From the NCBI GenBank assembly GCA_947625935.1, contig CANQQE010000022.1, positions 1 through 54,194 of the forward strand: a DNA stretch of 54,194 nucleotides. Direction: 5' to 3'. Shown piece by piece: positions 16,464 through 28,879 of the stretch. Made by a program: the position numbers and the translations under genes. A model generated the notes under the pieces. That model was not told where the DNA came from, did no database searches, and saw only the letters and a list, made by a program, of their open reading frames with translations. Each line of letters begins with the position of its first letter. Position 1 is the stretch's first letter. Source of the DNA: an uncultured Muribaculaceae bacterium. GTDB taxonomy: Bacteria > Bacteroidota > Bacteroidia > Bacteroidales > Muribaculaceae.

Positions 16464-18143
16464 TTACAGAATGTGTTTCTTTTTCAGCGTTTCAATATCC
16501 AAAGGTTTCAATCCGAAGTGTTCCAGGACCACCTTTTCGTTGCGATCTGTAAGATAGCATTTAGCCGGCTCGGAATAGGAGCCGGAGGCCAATGAGAGAG
16601 TAGAATCGCGTCGGCTGAAATCAATGCCGGCGAGATCGACAATGGTGTGAAAAAGGCTCACAGACGGCGACACATAGCACTCACGGTTACCGATGAGGTT
16701 TTCGAGCTTGCCGGGATGGCGGTCCGTATAGGCTGAGGAGAGCCACACGAGCGCAGGGACATGGAGCTGTGAGGCAGTGGGCACCGGCGACGCATGGAGG
16801 AAACGATTGCGCTCGTCATCGAAAATATCCTCGCCATGGTCGGAGGCGTAGACCACCGCCCCACTCCATCGACCGGACTCAACCGCGACCATCAAGTCGG
16901 CGAGATAGCTGTCGATATACCTGACAGTGTTGTCGAACGCGTTAATAAGCTCGGCCCGGTGGGAGGAGTTGGCATCGACCGTGCGGTCGGGAAGGAAGTG
17001 GCTGAAACGGTCGTCGTAGCGATCGCGGTAGTTGAAATGGGAGCCATAGGTGTGTAGCACAATAAACTGTTTGCGCTTTGACGTGTCGGCAAGGCATCTG
17101 TCGACAATACTGACAAGCTCGCCATCGAAATGCTCGCGGCCATCGTCCTTCAGGAAAACGACAGAATCGGCCTCAAGCCCGAAATAGTCGATGTAGGAGC
17201 CATTGCGACGCTGGTTGGAAAGGAACACCGTGTGGAATCCGGCTTCTTTAAACGCCGAAATCACACTCTTGCGGCTGTTGATGGAGTCGAAGTCGGCAGC
17301 AGTGAGGTCGGACAGCATCATCGGTACACTTTTGTGGGTGGTGTTGGACTGGGTGAGAGCTTTGGGAAAAGCCACGAGCCGCTCCATGGCCGAAAGCCGG
17401 GGGTTGGTCTCACGGTCATAGCCCAACAACTGCCAGTTGTCAGCCCGCGAGGTCTCCCCAACGACGAGCAGATAGACCTCACGCTCGGCATCGGGGTGTG
17501 TGGGCCGGGAACCGAATGTGAAACCGGCACTGGTCACAGGGTAGTCGGCCGCATCAGCAGCACGGCTGATCGCCGTGACAAGATTGTGAATCACATTAAC
17601 TGGAAAAATGTCTTTATCGACAGAAAAGCGGCCGACAAAGGCGACCGAGAGCAACAGAAGCACCACCCCGACAATGAAAAGCGCGGCCGAAACCTTGCGA
17701 TAAGCCTTTTGAAACCTATCGGAGAGGTTGCGTCGGCGGCATAGGTCGACGATAGCCCACACAATCATGGGGAGATATAACGCGACGACCGTGCCGATGG
17801 CCACCAGCAGGTTGCCAAGCAGCTCGGACACTTCGCGGGGGTTGGTGGTGGCGACGTTCAGGAACATATCGACGGCTATGATCGACTCGCCATAGAGATA
17901 GAGCAACACTATCTGGAAGGCTGAAAATATCATGAACGGGAGGCAGCAAAGCACCGATAGCCCAATGCGCCGTGTCAACGATAAAATCAATCCGTAGAAA
18001 CCGAGAGGCAAGAACAGATTGGTCGCGGCCGACAGAAATGGAAGATTTTCGGTGTGATTAAGAACCACATTGGGTATGAGCAACAACAACGGAAATATAA
18101 CGGCAAGCCACTCGGCCTGCGCAAAAGATTTAAAAAGCTTCAT
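16464..18143 (-). CDS. Phosphoethanolamine transferase (EptA-like)
   Basis: 559-residue inner-membrane enzyme of the alkaline-phosphatase/sulfatase superfamily. Five hydrophobic helices fill the first 170 residues, followed by a periplasmic catalytic domain. Metal and nucleophile motifs are visible: VVGETSRADNW (Glu at 230), SNTTHKSVPM (nucleophile Thr at 268 or 269), HTYGSHFNYR, and SDHGEDIFDD near the C-terminus. Such enzymes move phosphoethanolamine from phosphatidylethanolamine to lipid A or other glycans, which lowers surface negative charge and can reduce cationic-peptide binding. The start overlaps the end of the upstream Omp85-like gene by 14 bases, so the two are one transcript. The acceptor is inferred, not shown. 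Confidence 0.88.
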   Translation of the reverse strand: MKLFKSFAQAEWLAVIFPLLLLIPNVVLNHTENLPFLSAATNLFLPLGFYGLILSLTRRIGLSVLCCLPFMIFSAFQIVLLYLYGESIIAVDMFLNVATTNPREVSELLGNLLVAIGTVVALYLPMIVWAIVDLCRRRNLSDRFQKAYRKVSAALFIVGVVLLLLSVAFVGRFSVDKDIFPVNVIHNLVTAISRAADAADYPVTSAGFTFGSRPTHPDAEREVYLLVVGETSRADNWQLLGYDRETNPRLSAMERLVAFPKALTQSNTTHKSVPMMLSDLTAADFDSINSRKSVISAFKEAGFHTVFLSNQRRNGSYIDYFGLEADSVVFLKDDGREHFDGELVSIVDRCLADTSKRKQFIVLHTYGSHFNYRDRYDDRFSHFLPDRTVDANSSHRAELINAFDNTVRYIDSYLADLMVAVESGRWSGAVVYASDHGEDIFDDERNRFLHASPVPTASQLHVPALVWLSSAYTDRHPGKLENLIGNRECYVSPSVSLFHTIVDLAGIDFSRRDSTLSLASGSYSEPAKCYLTDRNEKVVLEHFGLKPLDIETLKKKHIL

Positions 18144-19479: not shown

Positions 19480-21210
19480 CTATTTTATGTCAAATCGTTT
19501 CATGGCCGCAAGCAAAGCAATAAGCTTATTGTGATCGTAAACATCTCCATTTTGCATCAATTCGGCAGAATCAGCCCGAAGTTCAGGATTATCGATAACC
19601 TCCAAGGTATTATCCATGTAATTTAACAGTGACCTGCGCAAAATTTCATTACGCTTCAAAGACCACCCAATAGGAGTCATCTGGAATGCATAATCAGCCC
19701 CACCTTGTTGACGTAGTATTTTTCGCTTTATAACATCAGGGATGTTGCTTACCGCAACCGTTCGACCTAAAATAGAGATTGTCGGCTCATTAATACGAGC
19801 TCTGATTCTTTCCCAACGATACTTAGCTGCATCGGGGTGTTTAGATAGAATCCATTTTTTATATAAATTGTGATTCCAACGATATTTCAAAGGAATCTTA
19901 AGCATAGCATCGAAAAACGGGCGGAAAATAAAAGGAGCAAATGTCTCCAATTGTTGTTGAACCAACGTATGGGCGGCAAAAAGCATACCATTAATGCCAC
20001 GATTATAGAAAATACCTATTTCTTCATTGGCATAATCTAATTTCGTAAAGTGCACTTTTGATAATAATTTATTGGGATAGAAAGCGCCACACCCAAGATT
20101 AAACTTACGATCTGGATTGACTCCATTATAATACGTTCCGATAATCACGTCGCCCAACATACCACTATGCACAATACCAAAATGAGATAAATCAATCATG
20201 CTAATCAGAGATTGGACATGAGCTGTACCATAGTATAATTCATATCCCCCAGTATACTCTATTATATTTTCAAAATCTAACAAATAAGATCCAGTATCCA
20301 ATGACTTGAAAACCCAGTCATGATTATAATCACAAGCAATTTCTTGAGCGATTGACTGATCTAAATATCCGCTTTTTGACACTGTATAATTCAATTGAGA
20401 AGTATAGCCAAGCTCATGGGCTACCAATGAGGTCATTCTGGAATCTAAACCGCCGGAAAGAGCAACGAGATGAGTATTTACCCTCCCCCTTAAATCACTG
20501 TCATACTGAGCCTTAACAGCCCTTTTAAACAAAGAATCCACCAACTCAACCGCATCGAGTTCAGACAAAGTATAATCAGGGGTATTATCAATAATATAAT
20601 ACGGTGATTCTTTAAAGCCATCGTCTATAACAATCACATTGCCGGGCAACATTCGTTTTACCTCATCAACCAATGTGGAATTTCCGAACATATACCCATT
20701 ACCCAGCAAAGAATATGCCGAACTAACGTCAAGCGTTTTACTTAATCCTTGGGTTTCGATGTTATCGTATATTGACGCTATGTCTGACGAAAATATGATG
20801 CAATCCTTATATTTAGCATAAAATACAGCTTTGCTTCCTATATGATCAGAAAAAACGACTACTCTGTTTCTTATTTTGTCAATAATAAAGCCAGAGAAAC
20901 TTCCATTAATTTTATCGGGGAAAGTATCGCCATATTCGCTGTACAATTTTGAAATAGCAGAATGGACATCTTCTCCATAATTGACAAGCTGATTTTTCTC
21001 AAAAATCACACCGTCAAAAAGTATTATCAATCCATCAGTGTCTTTAAAAGATTTGTCATCAGTGAAAGTTCCGTTTGGAGAATAGTCCACCGCATAACTC
21101 CATTTACTCCCCAATAGAGCAACCTGACAGTTTGTGTCTTTTTTAAGGGAAAGAATCCAACCTTTATGGTTATTTGTGAGTGTTATTTTGTTTTTATCCA
21201 TATTACTCAA
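19480..21210 (-). CDS. Asparagine synthase-related protein of the glycan locus
   Basis: 576 residues, with a glutamine-amidotransferase-like N-terminal part (about 1-190) and an asparagine-synthetase C-terminal part containing the ATP pyrophosphatase loop LSGGLDSR at 251-258. The second residue is Ser, not the Cys nucleophile of true glutamine-dependent AsnB, so the N-domain is probably inactive as glutaminase and ammonia would come from elsewhere. Members of this class in polysaccharide loci are thought to amidate sugars or other precursors; here that is inference from context. The gene is AT-rich compared with rfbFGH and is the last of the locus. The start may also be the Met at residue 4. 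Confidence 0.8.
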   Translation of the reverse strand: MSNMDKNKITLTNNHKGWILSLKKDTNCQVALLGSKWSYAVDYSPNGTFTDDKSFKDTDGLIILFDGVIFEKNQLVNYGEDVHSAISKLYSEYGDTFPDKINGSFSGFIIDKIRNRVVVFSDHIGSKAVFYAKYKDCIIFSSDIASIYDNIETQGLSKTLDVSSAYSLLGNGYMFGNSTLVDEVKRMLPGNVIVIDDGFKESPYYIIDNTPDYTLSELDAVELVDSLFKRAVKAQYDSDLRGRVNTHLVALSGGLDSRMTSLVAHELGYTSQLNYTVSKSGYLDQSIAQEIACDYNHDWVFKSLDTGSYLLDFENIIEYTGGYELYYGTAHVQSLISMIDLSHFGIVHSGMLGDVIIGTYYNGVNPDRKFNLGCGAFYPNKLLSKVHFTKLDYANEEIGIFYNRGINGMLFAAHTLVQQQLETFAPFIFRPFFDAMLKIPLKYRWNHNLYKKWILSKHPDAAKYRWERIRARINEPTISILGRTVAVSNIPDVIKRKILRQQGGADYAFQMTPIGWSLKRNEILRRSLLNYMDNTLEVIDNPELRADSAELMQNGDVYDHNKLIALLAAMKRFDIK

Positions 21211-21271: not shown

Positions 21272-22225
21272 TTATTTTGATTTCGAAAGTTTATATTTAA
21301 GGAGTAAAAAAAATTCTCTAATCCAAATGGGGGCTATGACGAACGGCAACATAATACGCCCATAACTTGAAGTGTTTTTATGAGTCATAATGGCCAGAAA
21401 TATTTTCAGTTGTTTAACGGGATTGGTCAAACATAGAACACGGCTTGATTGTATTGTTACAATCCGACGCTCAGCTTTATATCGAAGTTTTTCAGAAATT
21501 GGTAATTTTTTGTAATTCTCATATATCTCACCCATCAACCCAATGCAATCATAAGACCATGCCTTATTTGTTGTCTGCGTAACAAGTATAGGATAGTCCG
21601 GGAGATGTAGGGTGTCGTATTTCAGACATCTATCAGCGACCCAATATATTTGCACATATAAGTTTGACAGACCACGGGTTATGCACTCTTCATATAGCCC
21701 CTCCCTTTTAACAACAATACCCGACATCTGGTGGGCTCTAAAATTGTTTATGAGGAAGTTGTCAACACCGGCTCTGTACAGTCTTCTTTTCGCATTTAAA
21801 TCTCGTCCACCCTGAATGGCCACACCTTGTACATCAATAGCTTTAAATGATGGCAAGACACAACCAACGCCAAGATTTTCAATTGCATTGATAACTTCCT
21901 TAACGTATTCCTTAGAGCAATAATCATCATCGCCCATCAACATAACGTAATCAGCGTCAGACACTTCCAAGCAATATAAGAAATTCTTAAACATTCCAAT
22001 ATTTTCAACTTGCTTAGTGTACTTGACCACAGTTGACGGATGTGCCGCACAATAATCAATTATAGCCACCTCAGTTCCATCAGAGGATGCATTATCCGAA
22101 ACGATTATTTTCACATAATCATTAATTTTCAAATCAGTAATAATGCCATCGAGCAAATTAAGATTCTTCAGAAGATGCTCTTTTCTGTTATATGTAGGTA
22201 TTAATATGTCTAATGAGAACTTCAT
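21272..22225 (-). CDS. Family 2 glycosyltransferase
   Basis: 317-residue GT-A fold glycosyltransferase. It opens with DILIPTYNRKEHLLKN, followed by VSDNASSDGT (nucleotide-binding) and the metal-binding acidic motif MGDDDY. No membrane helix; the C-terminus has basic and hydrophobic patches suited to membrane association. It would transfer an activated sugar to the growing repeat unit. As the only glycosyltransferase in the locus it is a candidate for adding the dideoxyhexose made by the upstream genes, but the donor cannot be read from the sequence. AT-rich like its two neighbours. Confidence 0.9.
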   Translation of the reverse strand: MKFSLDILIPTYNRKEHLLKNLNLLDGIITDLKINDYVKIIVSDNASSDGTEVAIIDYCAAHPSTVVKYTKQVENIGMFKNFLYCLEVSDADYVMLMGDDDYCSKEYVKEVINAIENLGVGCVLPSFKAIDVQGVAIQGGRDLNAKRRLYRAGVDNFLINNFRAHQMSGIVVKREGLYEECITRGLSNLYVQIYWVADRCLKYDTLHLPDYPILVTQTTNKAWSYDCIGLMGEIYENYKKLPISEKLRYKAERRIVTIQSSRVLCLTNPVKQLKIFLAIMTHKNTSSYGRIMLPFVIAPIWIREFFLLLKYKLSKSK

Positions 22226-22332: not shown

Positions 22333-23223
22333 TTAAGACTCGTTAAATCTCATAAATCCCATTTTTAAGCTAACAATAGCTTCCCAATTCGGGAGTTTTG
22401 GGTATGAACGAATCGGATGCATAACTTCTCTATCTCTATATGGTCGATTCCCCCATAATGGATTTATAGTACATTTCAATTCCTCAGACATGACATCAAC
22501 CGCCCTTCTAAGTGTTACCAACGTCCCTGATGAAACACCGTACATAGCATATTTCTCAATCGAAGATAGGAGCATAGTGCAAGCCCTCTCATAAGCAATG
22601 CTGACGTCATCGATATGGACTAAGTCAATTTCCTGTTCGCCAGGAGACATTTCGATGGTCTCCCCAGTAAGCGCACAATTTCTCAATTTATTCCAGATTT
22701 TTGGGCGAGAATCATCTTCGCCATAAACATCAAAAAGCCGAAGTGTTATCACTCTGAAATTTTTTGCGTCAACAAAATATTGGATTATTTTTTCAAAAGC
22801 TTCCTTGGTCGACGCATAGAAATCAACCGGGTTGTATTCTTCAGAATTATAATTTTGCCAGTATGTACCGGTGTTTACCATTGCCTTGACTCCACTTTGA
22901 TTCATAGCCTCAAGTAATTCCGCACCAAATTCCAAATTCGAGCGTACAATCGTCCTAATATCTTTAGGAGAAGGGTTGGCAATTACAGCAGCGGCTAAAT
23001 GAACCACAACATCAGGCTGGAAATTTGACATAAAATCAATCATTGCATCAATATCACTATTGTAGCAGAATATCTTTATTTTGTCAATTATACCATCCAA
23101 AAGGCTGAAGTTGCTCGATGGGCGAGCTATGATACCGACCTGCCAACCCGATTCAAGCATATGTCTCGCTACATGAGAGCCAATATAGCCAGTAGCACCA
23201 GTTATCAAAACCTTTTTTTTCAT
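22333..23223 (-). CDS. NAD-dependent epimerase/reductase (CDP-dideoxyhexose type)
   Basis: 296-residue extended short-chain dehydrogenase. The nucleotide-binding loop is GATGYIGSHV (about 8-17) and the catalytic pair YASTK lies in the middle. The later segment GEQEIDLVHIDDV resembles that of the abequose and paratose synthases (RfbJ, RfbS). Placed directly after rfbF, rfbH and rfbG, it is the natural candidate for the 4-keto reduction that finishes CDP-paratose or CDP-abequose; which isomer cannot be decided. Its start overlaps the rfbG stop by four bases (ATGA), yet its base composition is clearly more AT-rich than rfbG. Confidence 0.83.
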   Translation of the reverse strand: MKKKVLITGATGYIGSHVARHMLESGWQVGIIARPSSNFSLLDGIIDKIKIFCYNSDIDAMIDFMSNFQPDVVVHLAAAVIANPSPKDIRTIVRSNLEFGAELLEAMNQSGVKAMVNTGTYWQNYNSEEYNPVDFYASTKEAFEKIIQYFVDAKNFRVITLRLFDVYGEDDSRPKIWNKLRNCALTGETIEMSPGEQEIDLVHIDDVSIAYERACTMLLSSIEKYAMYGVSSGTLVTLRRAVDVMSEELKCTINPLWGNRPYRDREVMHPIRSYPKLPNWEAIVSLKMGFMRFNES

Positions 23224-24308
23224 TGGGAGAGGAATTGGTGGATTTGGGTTAGACAGAGGGTGTGGACGTCGGGGGAGGCGGCGAGGTAGTTTTTGTACCA
23301 GTCGACGGTGAGTCGGACGGTGGCTGCGAGGTCGAGGCGGGGTTGCCAGCCGAGACGCAGACGGGCTTTGCTGATGTCGAGCATCAGGAGCTTGGCTTCA
23401 TGGAGGGCATGGGGGTCGGAGACATCGCGGAGTGTGCCGCTTCCGTAGCGGTCGATCACTTCGGTGGCAACGTCCCATACGGTGGCGACGCTCTCGAGAT
23501 TGGGCCCGAAGTTCCACCCTTCGCAGTAGCCGACGGGGTCGTCCCACATTTTCTTAGCAAGTAGCATATAACCGCTGAGAGGCTCAAGGACGTGCTGCCA
23601 GGGGCGTATGGACTTGGGCGACCTTATGTCGATGGGATCGCCTGCCTCAAGGGCGCGGATGCAATCGGGGATTATGCGGTCAGATGCCCAGTCGCCACCG
23701 CCGATGACGTTGCCGGCGCGGACGCTCGCAATTGATTTGCGGTGGTCGCCGTAATGCTCGGGGTTGAAGAAGCTGCGCCGCCATGATGAGATGGCAATTT
23801 CGGCCGCACCTTTGCTTGATGAGTACGGGTCGTAGCCTCCCATAGGCTCGTCTTCGCGATAGCCCCACAGTTGCTCTTTGTTTTCGTAGCATTTGTCGGT
23901 GGTAATCATCACACCGACCCTGACGCTATCGGTGGCGCGTATGGCTTCGAGTATGTTTATTGTGCCCATGACATTAGTCTGCCAGGTCTCGACGGGACAT
24001 TGGTAGCTGAGTCTCACAAGGGGCTGCGCGGCGAGGTGGAATACGATTTGGGGCTTATAGCGGGCAAAAATGCGCTTCATTTCCTTGCCGTCGCGGATGT
24101 CGGCCCGGATGTCGGCTTTAATTTTGTCTCCGATACCTGACATGAGGAAGTTGTCGCGGCGGGTGAGCGGGTCGAGACCGACGCCGACGATTTCTGCACC
24201 GAGGCTTTGGAGCCAAATCGCGAGCCAGCTTCCTTTGAATCCGGTGTGTCCTGTTATAAGTACCCGCTTGCCGGCATAAAAGTTGTCGAATATATCCAGA
24301 TTGGTCAT
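23220..24308 (-). CDS. rfbG: CDP-glucose 4,6-dehydratase
   Basis: Converts CDP-glucose to CDP-4-keto-6-deoxyglucose, the second step to CDP-3,6-dideoxyhexoses. 362 residues from the Met at 24308; a longer frame to 24404 adds 32 residues that fall inside the rfbH 3' end and lack family similarity, so I reject it. Motifs: GHTGFKGSWLA (NAD loop), ITTDKCYEN, and YDPYSSSKGAAE with the catalytic Tyr-xxx-Lys. The upstream rfbH stop lies 11 bases away, and the next gene overlaps by four. Confidence 0.95.
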   Translation of the reverse strand: MTNLDIFDNFYAGKRVLITGHTGFKGSWLAIWLQSLGAEIVGVGLDPLTRRDNFLMSGIGDKIKADIRADIRDGKEMKRIFARYKPQIVFHLAAQPLVRLSYQCPVETWQTNVMGTINILEAIRATDSVRVGVMITTDKCYENKEQLWGYREDEPMGGYDPYSSSKGAAEIAISSWRRSFFNPEHYGDHRKSIASVRAGNVIGGGDWASDRIIPDCIRALEAGDPIDIRSPKSIRPWQHVLEPLSGYMLLAKKMWDDPVGYCEGWNFGPNLESVATVWDVATEVIDRYGSGTLRDVSDPHALHEAKLLMLDISKARLRLGWQPRLDLAATVRLTVDWYKNYLAASPDVHTLCLTQIHQFLSQ

Positions 24309-24319
24309 CGTCAGCTCAA

Positions 24320-25660
24320 TCAATAGCGTGAAACAAATTCCTTGACGCTCGCAATCATGTGGGCGAGCATCGGGGGTGTCATGCCGGGATATACTCCGAT
24401 CCACAAGGTGTTGTTCATTATGAAATCGGTGTTCTCAAGCGATCCGACCACGCGATAAGAGCCGGGTTGCTGCCGCAGTTGGTCGAAAGCGGGATGTCTG
24501 AGCAGGTTTCCGGCAAAAAGATTGCGTGTCTGGATTTTGCAATCTTCAAGATGACGTGCGAGGTCGTTGCGTGAGAATGGGGCATCGGGTGAAACCGATA
24601 TAAGGAACCCGAACCATGAGGGATCGGAACCGGGTTGCGGCTCGGGGAGGATGAGCCACGGGGTGCCTTGAAGTCCATCGCGCAAGACCTTGAAGTTGCG
24701 TCGGCGGGCATCGACAATGGAGTCGAGTTTTTCCAACTGGGCACATCCGATGGCGGCTTGCATATCGGTCACTTTGAGGTTGTAGCCGAAATGGGAATAG
24801 ACGTATTTGTGATCATACCCGACGGGCAATTGTCCGAATTGTTTGGTGAAGCGGCAACCGCAAGTGTTGTCGACCCCACCCATGCACCAGCAGTCGCGGC
24901 CCCAGTCGCGGAATGAGTTGACGAGGCGGTGAAGCAGAGGGTTGTCGGTGTAGACCGCTCCACCCTCGCCCATTGTCATGTGATGAGGGGGATAGAATGA
25001 ACTGGTGCCTATATCACCGACTGTGCCGGTCTTGCGTATCACCCCGTCGATTTCAACCGTTGAGCCGAGGGCATCGCAGTTATCCTCGACAAGCCACAAG
25101 TTGTGTTTGTCGCAGAATTGTTTCACTGCGTTCAAATCGAATGGATTGCCGAGCGAGTGGGCAATCATCACGGCTTTGGTTTTGTCGGACAAAGCGTTTT
25201 CCAGTTGACTGACATCAATATTATACTGAGGCACGGTGACATCGACAAAGACCGGAATGGCACCGTATTGGATACATGGGGTGACCGTCGTTGGGAAACC
25301 GCAGGCTACGGTTATGACCTCGTCGCCGCGCTTAATCTGACGTTCACCAAGCTCGGGAGCGGTCAGGGCAGAAAAAGCGAGCAGATTGGCCGATGAGCCT
25401 GAATTAGTCAGCGAGCAATATCTCACGCCCAGCCACCCGGCAAACGCCTTTTCAAACTTAGTGGCCCACGGCCCTGCCGTAAGCCAAAAATCGAGAGATG
25501 AGTCAACGAGGTTAACCATCTCGCGTTCATCGAAATAGCGTCCGCCATAGTTGACAAAAGTGTCGCCCGCGACAAATTGACGCGGCGCGCCATGGGTTTC
25601 GGCATAATATTCCTTAGTGAGTTGAAGTATCTGATTTTTAAGTTGTTCCTTTCGGCTCAT
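24320..25660 (-). CDS. rfbH: CDP-4-keto-6-deoxyglucose 3-dehydratase (E1)
   Basis: 446-residue enzyme of the aminotransferase-fold family that removes the 3-hydroxyl in 3,6-dideoxyhexose synthesis. The usual PLP-binding Lys is replaced by His (HHMTMGEGG, His 226-227), the hallmark that makes it bind PMP and act as a dehydratase. The 2Fe-2S cysteines unique to this family are also seen: C257-x-C259-x7-C267, with an upstream Cys near 195. It needs a reductase partner (E3-type) not encoded here. Between rfbF (27 bases upstream) and rfbG (11 bases downstream). Confidence 0.96.
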
Positions 25661-25687: not shown

Positions 25688-26485
25688 TTACCATACTTTC
25701 CAAGGGGCATCGCCTGAATCCCACATCTGGTTAAGCTCGACGTTGTCGCGCAGTGTGTCCATCGGTTTCCAGAAGCCTCGATGGCGGAAAGCGTGCATCT
25801 TACCGGCACGGGCTATGTCTTCGAGTGGTCCCCGCTCGAAGATGACAGAATCATCGCCATCGGGAATGAAATCGAACACTTCGGGTTCACAAACGAAGTA
25901 ACCGGCGTTAACCCAGTTTTTGTCGCCCGATGGTTTTTCCTGAAATGAGAGCACGGTGTCGGTTTCGGTGTCGATCTGAAGCGAGCCGAACTTACCACGC
26001 GGACTGTAGGCCGTGAGGGATACCAACGCTCCAGACCGCTCATGAGCGGCGATGGAGTCGCGGATGTTTATGTCGGCTACCCCGTCACCGTAAGTGAGCA
26101 GGAAGCGATTGCGGTCTACATATTTCTGTATGCGTTTGATGCGTCCGCCGGTCATGGTGTTCAATCCAGTATCAATCATCGTGACCCGCCATTTTTCGGA
26201 ATGGTTGTCGAGGATTTTGACCGAGTCGTCGGAGAGGTCAACTTCCATGTCGCAGTTGTGGCGGAAATAGTTCGCGAAATATTCCTTGATGATATATTGT
26301 TTGTAACCGCAGCATATTATGAAATCATTAATTCCATAATGGCTGTAGGTTTTCATTATATGCCACAATATAGGTTTCCCACCAATCTCGACCATCGGTT
26401 TCGGAATCAGGTTTGTCGCCTCGCTCAATCGGGTTCCAAATCCGCCAGCGAGAATCACCGCTTTCAGCATATTATTGTCGGCCAT
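25688..26485 (-). CDS. rfbF: Glucose-1-phosphate cytidylyltransferase
   Basis: Makes CDP-glucose from CTP and glucose-1-phosphate, the entry to the dideoxyhexose branch. Nucleotidyltransferase signature AVILAGGFGTRLSEATN close to the N-terminus, then PKPMVEIGGKPILWHIM. The start is taken as ATG at 26485 (265 residues); ATG at 26470 is also possible, and the frame to 26548 would run through the inverted repeat and is unlikely. First gene of the surface-glycan operon. Its leader includes the left inverted repeat of the putative switch. Confidence 0.95.
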   Translation of the reverse strand: MADNNMLKAVILAGGFGTRLSEATNLIPKPMVEIGGKPILWHIMKTYSHYGINDFIICCGYKQYIIKEYFANYFRHNCDMEVDLSDDSVKILDNHSEKWRVTMIDTGLNTMTGGRIKRIQKYVDRNRFLLTYGDGVADINIRDSIAAHERSGALVSLTAYSPRGKFGSLQIDTETDTVLSFQEKPSGDKNWVNAGYFVCEPEVFDFIPDGDDSVIFERGPLEDIARAGKMHAFRHRGFWKPMDTLRDNVELNQMWDSGDAPWKVW

Positions 26486-26523
26486 AAAAAATCGTCGGTT
26501 GTAGTTAACATAATTACCAATCT

Positions 26524-26708
26524 CTTGGCAAGAGATACTTGTTGGCAACGCAAAGATACATATTTAATTGCGTTTCAACAATATAATAGCAGAATATAAT
26601 TGTAAGGTTACATTAGGTTTCTGATATTTGTTAAAAAACTCGAATAACTAAAGCAAGGCATCTGTCTGATTTACACCCCCATAAATGTAGTCACAATCTC
26701 TTGCCAAG
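26524..26708. promoter_or_regulatory. Putative invertible promoter segment
   Basis: Two 13-base sequences, CTTGGCAAGAGAT at 26524-26536 and its exact reverse complement at 26696-26708, enclose 159 bases. The segment holds the only good promoter for rfbF. Each repeat is itself nearly palindromic around CTTG-n-CAAG; the central base is G on the left and C on the right, so the two sites have opposite polarity. Size, contents and position in front of a glycan operon match the invertible promoters known in Bacteroides capsule loci, and a tyrosine recombinase gene lies about 1 kb away. Inversion itself is inferred. Confidence 0.6.
26551..26582 (-). promoter_or_regulatory. Promoter of the rfb glycan operon
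   Basis: Minus strand TATCTTTG (26558-26551) is a perfect -7 element; ATTG (26582-26579) at a 20-base spacing is an acceptable -33. Start near 26544, giving rfbF a leader of about 60 bases that carries the left inverted repeat. In the inverted state it would face the tupA-like gene. Confidence 0.6.
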
Positions 26709-26765
26709 CGACTATGACTATTCCAACAACTCATATATGATAATAACTAAATCAAGACACCGCCA

Positions 26766-27665
26766 ATGATTACGCATATCAAAAGGGGGGCGTGCTACTG
26801 CATCAAGCATCTCACGCCTAAATAATGGGCATTTTTATTATACAGGCATACATACGGCTATTTCCCTAATTTATCAAATCCGAGAGACCTGAACGAATGG
26901 ATTATCAGGTTAATGCTAAAAGAAGACACTTCGGATTGGACGAGATTGGCCGACAAATACGCTGTCAGAAAATATGTCTCGGATTGTGGATATGGCGAAA
27001 TGCTTATACCTTTGTTAGGAGTATGGGATAAAGCCGATGATATTGACTTCAATTCATTAACACCCCCATACGTATTAAAGAACAACAACGGATCGGGCAC
27101 CAATATCTTCATAAGGGACTCAGAAGCGACTGATTTTGAGAAAATAAGGGCTGCTTTATCTTCATTGCTCAAAAGAAGATTCGGATATGATTCGGGCGAA
27201 ATCCATTATTTCAAAATCCCGCGCAAAATCATAGCGGAAAAAATGCTTGATGCAAAGAAACAGGATTTCGAATCCTCTTCTTTAATTGATTACAAAATAT
27301 GGTGCATAAACGGAAAGCCGGAAATGATTGTGATATATTATGACCGCGGCGCAGACCACCATCAGACTAAAGTGGAAATCAGGGGAACCGATTGGTCTAA
27401 TAAAAATAGCCTGTTCAACCCTACAGCAGCTTTCACCATCGGAGATGGACGCATTAAAGCACCCGCTTGTCTACAGTATATGTTAAACGCTGCAAGCGCG
27501 CTTTCCAAAGGATTTCCACAAGTAAGGGTTGATTTTTATGTAGTTGACAATAAACCCTATTTTGGAGAGTTAACTTTTTCGAGTGCCGCAGGCCATGTCG
27601 CTACATTTTCTCGTGAAGCTTTAGTGGAACTGGGCGCAAAAATATCAAAGGCCCAATCTCAGTAA
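26766..27665 (+). pseudogene. TupA-like ATP-grasp gene with in-frame stop
   Basis: The frame from ATG 26766 to 27665 would encode about 299 residues, the normal length for TupA-like ATP-grasp proteins of capsule and teichuronopeptide loci. Codon 20 is TAA (26823-26825). Reading on after it gives the family N-terminus YFPNLSNPRDLNEW, then DKYAVRKYV, IPLLGVWD and VLKNNNGSG (the ATP-grasp loop). The first ATG after the stop is at 26913 (codon 50) and gives only 250 residues, losing conserved sequence. So the gene is either broken, restarted internally, or carries a sequencing error. The intact family ligates amino acids or similar groups to glycans. Its 3' end lies 12 bases from the convergent recombinase. 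Confidence 0.75.
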
Positions 27666-27676
27666 ATTCTACAGCC

Positions 27677-28879
27677 TCAAAGCGATGACAGTATAAGACT
27701 ATTGGCCTCGTCAACTATGGAGGTGTCAAGACTGGCGAGATAGATTCGGGTGGTCGCCTCACTATCGTGTCCTAATCCTTCGGATATTACCGAAAGCGGA
27801 ATGCCTTTAACTTTAGCGGCGGAAGCCCAACTATGGCGTGCGACATAGAGGGTCAGCGGGATGGCTACCCCAGCCATATCAGCTATACATTTGAGGCTAT
27901 GATTGATATTATAGCTTGCGTTGAGGTAGGCACATCTTTCATTGGTGTCTGTATTTCGGATGACGGGAAGCAGGTAATCGCTATTGTTTTCAGGATACTT
28001 GTCGAGTATCATTTGCATTTCTTTTGTCCATTCAATGATCAGTAGCTGCCCGGTTTTGCGGCGGCGGTAAGTGACATAACCGTTTTTGAGGTCACTCTTT
28101 TTAAGAAATGCCATGTCTATGAAGCTCATACCGCGAAGATAAAAGCTCATTAGAAACATATTACGGGCGAAGTCGAGAGCCGGTGCGAGTGTCAGATCCA
28201 ACGCCTTGATTTTTTTGATTACAGCCAACGGCAAAGCCCGTTTCACGGTCTTGTCAACTCCCGTATAGACATGACGGAACGGATTGCGGCTCTCAATGAC
28301 TCCATCCTCAACCGCACGGTTGTAGACGGCCCTCAAAATGCGAAAATAAAACGATATGGTGTTAGGAGCGACTCCCCGGGCCTTGTGCCACGCCTCATAC
28401 CCTTTCATCGTTTCCGAGCTGATACAATCCAGCATTATGTCTTCGTCCGCTCTATACTTCTTGAAACTGTTGAGGGTGGACTTGTATGTTTCTGACGTTC
28501 TGATTTTTCCGTTCTGTCTCAATTTGGCGATAATTCCCTCCATAAAATAGAATAGAGAGTAATCATGAGTATAACGGTTAAATTCGTTGATAATGTCGTC
28601 AACAGTGTATGAAAAACAGGTTGCATTGAATTTACGGACAATCTTGGACAGCCGCTCAAAATCCCACCGGACACGCTCATTTATTGAGTGGACTAACGAT
28701 ATGCGGTCGCTTTCCTGAGTCATCTTAATCATTGAGCGGTTCTCGTCCCATTCGTATGGGAACACTTTGTATCCGGTCAGAAGCTGTCGCACCTTTCTCT
28801 CATGGATAATCTGATAGTAGATTGTGCCCTGGTGTCCAGCGACAGTAGAAGGACGGAATTTCACTTTTATTGAAGCCAT
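27677..28879 (-). CDS. Tyrosine recombinase (integrase/invertase)
   Basis: 400-residue site-specific tyrosine recombinase with the three-part layout common in Bacteroidota: arm-binding N-terminal domain (about 1-90), SAM-like core-binding domain (about 105-205) and catalytic domain (about 215-400). Catalytic residues are visible: Arg249 (YLRGMS), Lys275, Arg348 (VARHSW), His371 (GLGHDS) and Tyr380 (TRIYLAS). No other mobile-element genes are nearby, so it does not look like part of a phage or conjugative element. In Bacteroides, such recombinases beside surface loci invert local promoters; its position next to the inverted repeats at 26.5-26.7 kb suggests that role, by inference. Confidence 0.9.
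   Translation of the reverse strand: MASIKVKFRPSTVAGHQGTIYYQIIHERKVRQLLTGYKVFPYEWDENRSMIKMTQESDRISLVHSINERVRWDFERLSKIVRKFNATCFSYTVDDIINEFNRYTHDYSLFYFMEGIIAKLRQNGKIRTSETYKSTLNSFKKYRADEDIMLDCISSETMKGYEAWHKARGVAPNTISFYFRILRAVYNRAVEDGVIESRNPFRHVYTGVDKTVKRALPLAVIKKIKALDLTLAPALDFARNMFLMSFYLRGMSFIDMAFLKKSDLKNGYVTYRRRKTGQLLIIEWTKEMQMILDKYPENNSDYLLPVIRNTDTNERCAYLNASYNINHSLKCIADMAGVAIPLTLYVARHSWASAAKVKGIPLSVISEGLGHDSEATTRIYLASLDTSIVDEANSLILSSL

Follow-up and report, generated by a model that had tools for sequence, protein, structure and literature searches.

What does the inverted repeat upstream of a dideoxysugar-type glycan operon in this uncultured Muribaculaceae bacterium do: does it bound a promoter that recombination can turn round, or does it mark two fixed binding sites? 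In the window (the whole stretch of 54,194 nucleotides analysed here), CTTGGCAAGAGAT at 26524–26536 and its exact reverse complement at 26696–26708 were both found as the original prediction had it, and the match continues beyond these 13 nt, the inverted alignment (I1) reaching 15/16. The prediction did not mention that the arms are themselves palindromes, ATCTC-TTGGCAA-GAGAT; the pair is a direct repeat as well (D1, 16/18). Palindromic arms make a fixed pair of operators a serious alternative, one that had to be excluded.

The evidence points to 26520–26712 being, very probably, an invertible promoter (inverton), with the recombinase encoded at 27677–28879 as the most likely invertase and the present orientation ON. 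Support for the invertible promoter originally proposed comes from the matched inverted cores, a common internal architecture, the adjacent recombinase and the occurrence of both orientations in relatives. If true, surface glycans, outer-membrane receptors and some defence-like genes would be switched ON and OFF in Muribaculaceae, one of the dominant families of the mouse gut, by elements recognisable from their sequence; no relevant account of invertible promoters or phase variation in this family was found in the open-licence literature.

Sites, interior and flanking genes

Aligned with the family described below, the putative recombination site at the promoter end (26520–26536, in the rfbF leader) is a perfect palindrome of 8+1+8 (ATCTCTTG G CAAGAGAT). 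The site at the non-promoter end (26696–26712) reads ATCTC-TTGCCAA-GCGAC: its core and the left core are reverse complements, giving matched, inverted crossover cores (TTGGCAA/TTGCCAA), and its outer half carries two changes, GCGAC where the family has GAGAT. Start to start, the segment measures 176 bp, within the 100–400 bp range of intergenic invertons. A scan of the window for ATCTCTTGNCAAGAGAT at ≤3 mismatches recovered solely the two arms (0 and 2 mismatches), compared with a mean of 0.20 matches in shuffled windows, two or more being found in 1/100 shuffles. Across the 3.69-Mb genome the arms were the sole matches at ≤2 mismatches, with 16 further at 3 mismatches; the backward control gave 8 matches in all.

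The putatively invertible interior (26537–26695, minus strand, 159 bp), which would hold the promoter in its present ON orientation, was compared with matrices built from 70 relatives, the window left out. Its two ends scored z values of 4.1 and 3.7, which 0/2000 dinucleotide shuffles reached at either end, and the reversed interior scored much lower. The minus-strand promoter first described, TTG-N20-TATCTTTG facing rfbF, was recovered as a predicted element: the -7 element TATCTTTG (26551–26558, minus) lies 22 nt from the site, a position typical for the family, and a -33-type TTG seen on inspection (26579–26581, minus) stands 20 nt upstream of it, as the Bacteroidota spacing rule for these two elements has it. 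Towards the other end is an IHF-like element, AATCAGACAGATG (26659–26671, minus), with 2 mismatches to the E. coli consensus WATCAANNNNTTR and an offset of 24 from the non-promoter site, which is also the modal offset in the relatives (26/70). With that E. coli consensus, 34/70 relatives had a match at offset 20–30, compared with a mean of 11.6 and a largest value of 21 in 20 shuffled sets. An AACAA box (26628–26632, minus) at offset 63 is in register with an AAACAA box found at offset 62 in 15/70 relatives. The IHF-like element is also palindromic, with a reverse match at offset 12 in 29/70 relatives. This weakens a simple IHF reading, since the binder may be another protein or the recombinase itself.

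The operon that the promoter faces is of the CDP-dideoxyhexose type, in line with the dideoxysugar operon first proposed, its first three genes exceeding curated cut-offs: rfbF, glucose-1-phosphate cytidylyltransferase (25688–26485; TIGR02623, 381 bits, cut-off 300), rfbH, lipopolysaccharide biosynthesis protein RfbH (24320–25660; NF011936, 713 bits, cut-off 423) and rfbG, CDP-glucose 4,6-dehydratase (23220–24404, its start probably near 24308; TIGR02622, 488 bits, cut-off 278). Together these make up what we take to be the CDP-3,6-dideoxyhexose route. Also on the minus strand follow a member of the NAD-dependent sugar epimerase/dehydratase family (22333–23223; PF01370), a family 2 glycosyltransferase (21272–22225; PF00535) and an asparagine-synthase-like protein (19480–21210; PF13537 above and PF00733 below cut-off), probably the last gene of the operon. 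A phosphoethanolamine-transferase-like (EptA-type) gene lies downstream of the operon at 16464–18143, above the Pfam and below the listed NCBIfam cut-offs. On the other side of the segment is a TupA-like ATP-grasp frame (26826–27665, plus; PF14305), seemingly without its 5′ start: it opens directly after a stop (26823–26825), and its first ATG, GTG or TTG is at 26913. Lacking a common start before that position, the flipped side is probably OFF.

Paired sites among relatives

At ≤2 mismatches the palindrome recurs as pairs in relatives. An exact pair pattern (CTCTTNNNAAGAG twice, 145–175 nt between) was present in 84/398 genomes of the family, compared with 1 for the pattern read backwards, and in 12/393 genomes drawn across the order; among the genomes sampled, CTC-N7-GAG sites were present in the family of the window and also in eight further families of the order. 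A search for further inverted copies upstream of glycan loci in the window's own genome had been suggested at the outset, and it gave none: no partner with a matching core was found at any of the 18 other candidate sites examined, out of 19 (all but C21:15594), the candidates being the 21 genome matches at ≤2 mismatches in the arms minus the window's two (backward control, 7). A partner match at L004 (309 bp, 14/20 arm letters) was weak and was taken as chance. A relaxed form of the exact-pair pattern likewise had no match in this genome, and the window's own pair is itself outside that pattern.

The centres of the paired sites are reverse-complementary in 98/100 pairs among the matches listed (73/75 from the family, 25/25 from the order), as read by eye. 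Both exceptions are direct pairs, at loci L132 and L133, each of which has a third, inverted site. Moreover, the centres vary between loci, 23/32 possible kinds being represented, and among the more variable sites covariation extends over all 7 bp of the core (TAAATAA/TTATTTA, for example). Unmatched centres were seen in 13 two-site combinations (jointly ≤3 mismatches), of which eight join sites of neighbouring segments and five use a weak third site. Matched, asymmetric, locus-specific centres argue for crossover sites, because crossover demands matching and operators do not; a rule of this kind detects switches without reads and tells them from palindromic operators. The two cores of one locus can also change jointly (GGC in G070, GGG in G138), which would be expected were strands of the two sites mixed at every flip.

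The segments also have a common layout. In 83 segments (inverted pairs ≤300 bp apart, the window and a few loci with overlapping pairs included), a Bacteroidota -7 element (TA-nn-TTTG or TA-nnn-TTTG within 60 nt of a site) was found near one site only in 76, near both in four and near neither in three. Set against the strand of the neighbouring ORF, these 76 one-ended promoters face a gene start in 45 cases and do not in 26, with five lacking an assignment. The plan of the family appears to set a promoter at one end, starting mostly 20–23 nt inside the site; measured from the opposite site, a palindromic IHF-like element and an AAACAA box each have a favoured offset. Lengths of the 100 pairs among the matches listed cluster near 165, 175 and 186 bp, a clustering reached in 0/5000 uniform draws (resultant 0.66 at 10.5 bp, 0.69 at 11.5 bp), the pattern restricting lengths to 158–188 and related loci not being independent; a search with a wider length range added segments of 193–197. 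Segment lengths thus seem to step by about one helical turn.

Both orientations at one locus were observed in relatives. One clear case is L096/L097 (G070 versus G138), where identity over 1 kb is 94.3% in one flank and 99.6% in the other and the interior is 93.7% identical when reversed and 53.1% when direct; a 551-aa gene (DUF6377) has the promoter pointing away from it in one genome and towards it in the other. A second clear comparison of orthologues, the recombinase-adjacent L194/L212, was also opposite (96% over 168 bp, one flank compared), and the three-site locus L132/L133 provided a partial opposite case (80 bp at 81%). L108/L109, L211/L212 and L101/L102 shared one orientation, as did L098/L099, L112/L162 and L114/L115 on short or patchy matches (an interior match of 35–56 bp in two of them). 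Inversion was seen on Bacteroides plasmids also: exactly the second segment is reversed between NZ_CP072238.1 (L251, 1623–2492) and NZ_CP072253.1, whose recombinases are identical over all 407 codons, stop included. Among pMMCAT plasmid records of at least 99% identity covering both segments, 16/17 were unflipped and colinear, as was one at 87.5%. No orthologue of the window's locus was among the matches listed in 199 family genomes, nearly all of which were to the recombinase gene; the window's genome (G000) aside, none spans the intergenic stretch.

A wider reading, held tentatively and put somewhat short of even, is that these elements form a CTC-N7-GAG recombinase and site family in which the core would be free to evolve as long as it is matched pairwise, with one segment plan, relatives on plasmids, and a synaptic complex that is ordered and bent and includes an accessory protein. 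If the single plan holds, such an ordered, bent complex would follow; to our knowledge, none has been described for Bacteroidota switches.

Among 20 scanned genes that lie beside other segments, matches include NusG-like, TonB receptor, TerD, FHA, DUF4007, DUF3575, DUF6377 and WG-repeat proteins and a further two with integrase domains; no match was found for four of the genes. The TerD-domain and DUF4007 genes (L105:6918–7478, L108:5286–5846 and L145:6283–7128) adjoin such segments, which suggests that switches of this family are not confined to surface glycans.

Several loci hold more than one segment. Tandem invertons were seen at L105, L106, L108, L109, L188, L191, L203, L212, L250, L251 and L253, and neighbouring cores differ in 11/11, even at L106 (ATT/ACT), where the two interiors are 95.6% identical. 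The idea that invertons of one genome avoid shared cores as private addresses was not supported, 5/63 within-genome pairs sharing a centre where 3.8 were expected; at that base rate the 11 tandem loci are too few to judge. Three-site loci with two direct copies and one inverted (L132, L133, L175 and L171) could permit deletions or nested inversions.

The recombinase and the competing readings

A gene overlooked in the original prediction, as was the TupA-like ORF in between, lies near the segment. It encodes a tyrosine recombinase of 400 aa (27677–28879, minus; Phage_int_SAM_5, Phage_integrase and Arm-DNA-bind_5), the presumed invertase, with its 3′ end towards the segment. When 19 segment-adjacent recombinases (the window's included) are aligned, R249, K275, R348, H371 and Y380 show no variation. 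Tyrosine recombinases usually have His three residues before the second Arg; here Y345, three before R348, takes its place, and the protein scores under the XerC/XerD model cut-offs. The gene is thus full length with its catalytic residues present, and its product would be expected to act on the window's sites. Close relatives of the recombinase are in records titled Muribaculaceae, Muribaculum and Paramuribaculum. Three contigs that also carry recombinases of this type bear the names Eggerthellaceae, Staphylococcus and Oscillibacter (L187, L209 and L212) and are probably mis-binned.

Of the 81 sequences retrieved around pairs, among them the window and three that yielded no pair by the script's rule, 21 contained a homologue. 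All 20 scoring above 200 bits, the window's among them, have the 3′ end towards the segment, 15–968 bp away, and the one weak match (143 bits) does not. Tandem segments after a recombinase occur in relatives. In the portion of PMC11892184 available, invertases near invertons are described as generally non-regulatable, a description that the 3′-facing arrangement fits. The contigs of L192, L202 and L210 stop 77–81 bp past the recombinase match, a frequent position of the first site, perhaps as breaks from mixed orientations.

Under the favoured reading, the recombinase would most likely bind both ATCTC...GAGAT sites, and strand exchange within the matched 7-bp cores would turn the 159-bp interior, perhaps bent during the reaction by an IHF/HU-like protein. 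In the sequenced orientation the promoter would read rfbF-rfbH-rfbG and then the glycan genes behind them (ON); after inversion, it would read towards the seemingly truncated TupA-like gene (OFF). The switch is presumably still turning in the sequenced strain.

The last of these points is where an alternative bears most directly. The segment might be a former inverton locked ON, inversion having ended through the degenerate right outer half or through the separation of recombinase and segment, so that the promoter is now fixed. The two changes that turn GAGAT into GCGAC place the window's pair outside the exact family pattern (0 for G000), and the TupA-like ORF holds the recombinase 968 bp from the site, compared with less than 100 bp in 14/19 relatives; the right site may accordingly turn slowly or be locked. 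However, both sites of a recombinase-adjacent pair in L249 have a GTCGC half-site, and L168 has ATCGC at one of its sites, so the window's right site need not be dead, provided that those loci can turn. Together with the intact recombinase and the retention of interior elements and matched core, this makes a locked state unlikely.

Rather less probable is that the recombinase served a decayed island as its integrase and has nothing to do with the repeats, the segment being turned by another recombinase encoded elsewhere. For some pairs such remote action is likely, since 60/81 of the sequences around pairs had no homologue, and the window's genome holds seven other matches to the recombinase. 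Against this, close homologues (64–84% identity) had a pair within 2.5 kb downstream at 16/28 named loci when the 3′ side was examined, or at 16/24 when loci with less than 350 bp of downstream DNA (4/12 misses) are set aside, and when both sides were examined the segment was on the 3′ side for 20/21 homologues.

A model with the palindromes as operators of a dimeric repressor or activator of rfbF, looping between one copy just downstream of the promoter, where a repressor operator is expected, and another about 150 bp upstream, orientation being fixed, was considered first given the palindromic arms and is now highly improbable: it has no need of the inverted, matching, locus-specific centres that constrain site orientation, the genome has no other copy at ≤2 mismatches, and interiors opposite to their flanks occur in orthologues and between two near-identical plasmids.

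Relation to known switches

IHF has a role in the inversion of E. coli fimS. In the partial descriptions available, fimS with FimB resembles the window in its tyrosine recombinase, promoter segment and internal IHF-like element (of presumed IHF function in the window), and differs in its longer segment (314 bp) and other targets. The Mpi-type capsule promoters excerpted in PMC8375218, which have the repeat ARACGTTCGTN or, in the 183–186 bp promoters of B. intestinalis, GTTCGTTTAA, match the window in segment size and capsule or glycan target; their repeats are unrelated to the window site ATCTCTTGGCAAGAGAT, and they are turned by a serine recombinase, whereas the enzyme local to the window is a tyrosine recombinase. 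The suggestion of a distinct switch family is therefore upheld in part: the site is unlike the Mpi-type repeats quoted in that source, but it may match a published Bacteroidota repeat logo.

Closer parallels are found among tyrosine recombinases. Tsr19 (BF2766) and Tsr0667 of B. fragilis invert promoters that drive polysaccharide or outer-membrane genes, Tsr19 both locally and at a distance, according to the sections available of PMC4747536 and PMC3090145; their likeness to the window, at the level of description, is that of site-specific recombinases acting on promoters. In Bacteroidales ICEs (class IP-ARG-2; glycan cluster of ICE14), the excerpted text of PMC8748976 places two invertible regions directly 3′ of an invertase gene, with glycan-synthesis genes downstream of the invertible promoters. 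The window has the same order of local invertase, adjoining invertible promoter and glycan genes, the comparison being one of arrangement, not repeat sequence; unlike those regions, which are on mobile elements, it has a single recognisable segment, 968 bp from the recombinase. On the strength of these regions beside a local invertase, as that source describes them, the window's segment and recombinase are filed under Bacteroidales invertible promoters with a local tyrosine recombinase, of which the pair is, by its sequence features, a further member.

The pMMCAT plasmids of Bacteroides and Parabacteroides carry, by annotation, a site-specific integrase, two segments, an UpxY-family antiterminator and a MraY-family glycosyltransferase. 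Their recombinase is 49.5% identical to that of the window, and they share with it palindromic sites of the CTC...GAG kind and downstream polysaccharide genes, with promoter motifs in both segments and the inversion described above; they differ in having two tandem segments, other arms and cores, an UpxY-type first gene and a plasmid location. Two records of Parabacteroides plasmids (OY725773.1 and OY725776.1) end where the first pMMCAT segment has its borders, perhaps as assembly breaks caused by mixed orientations.
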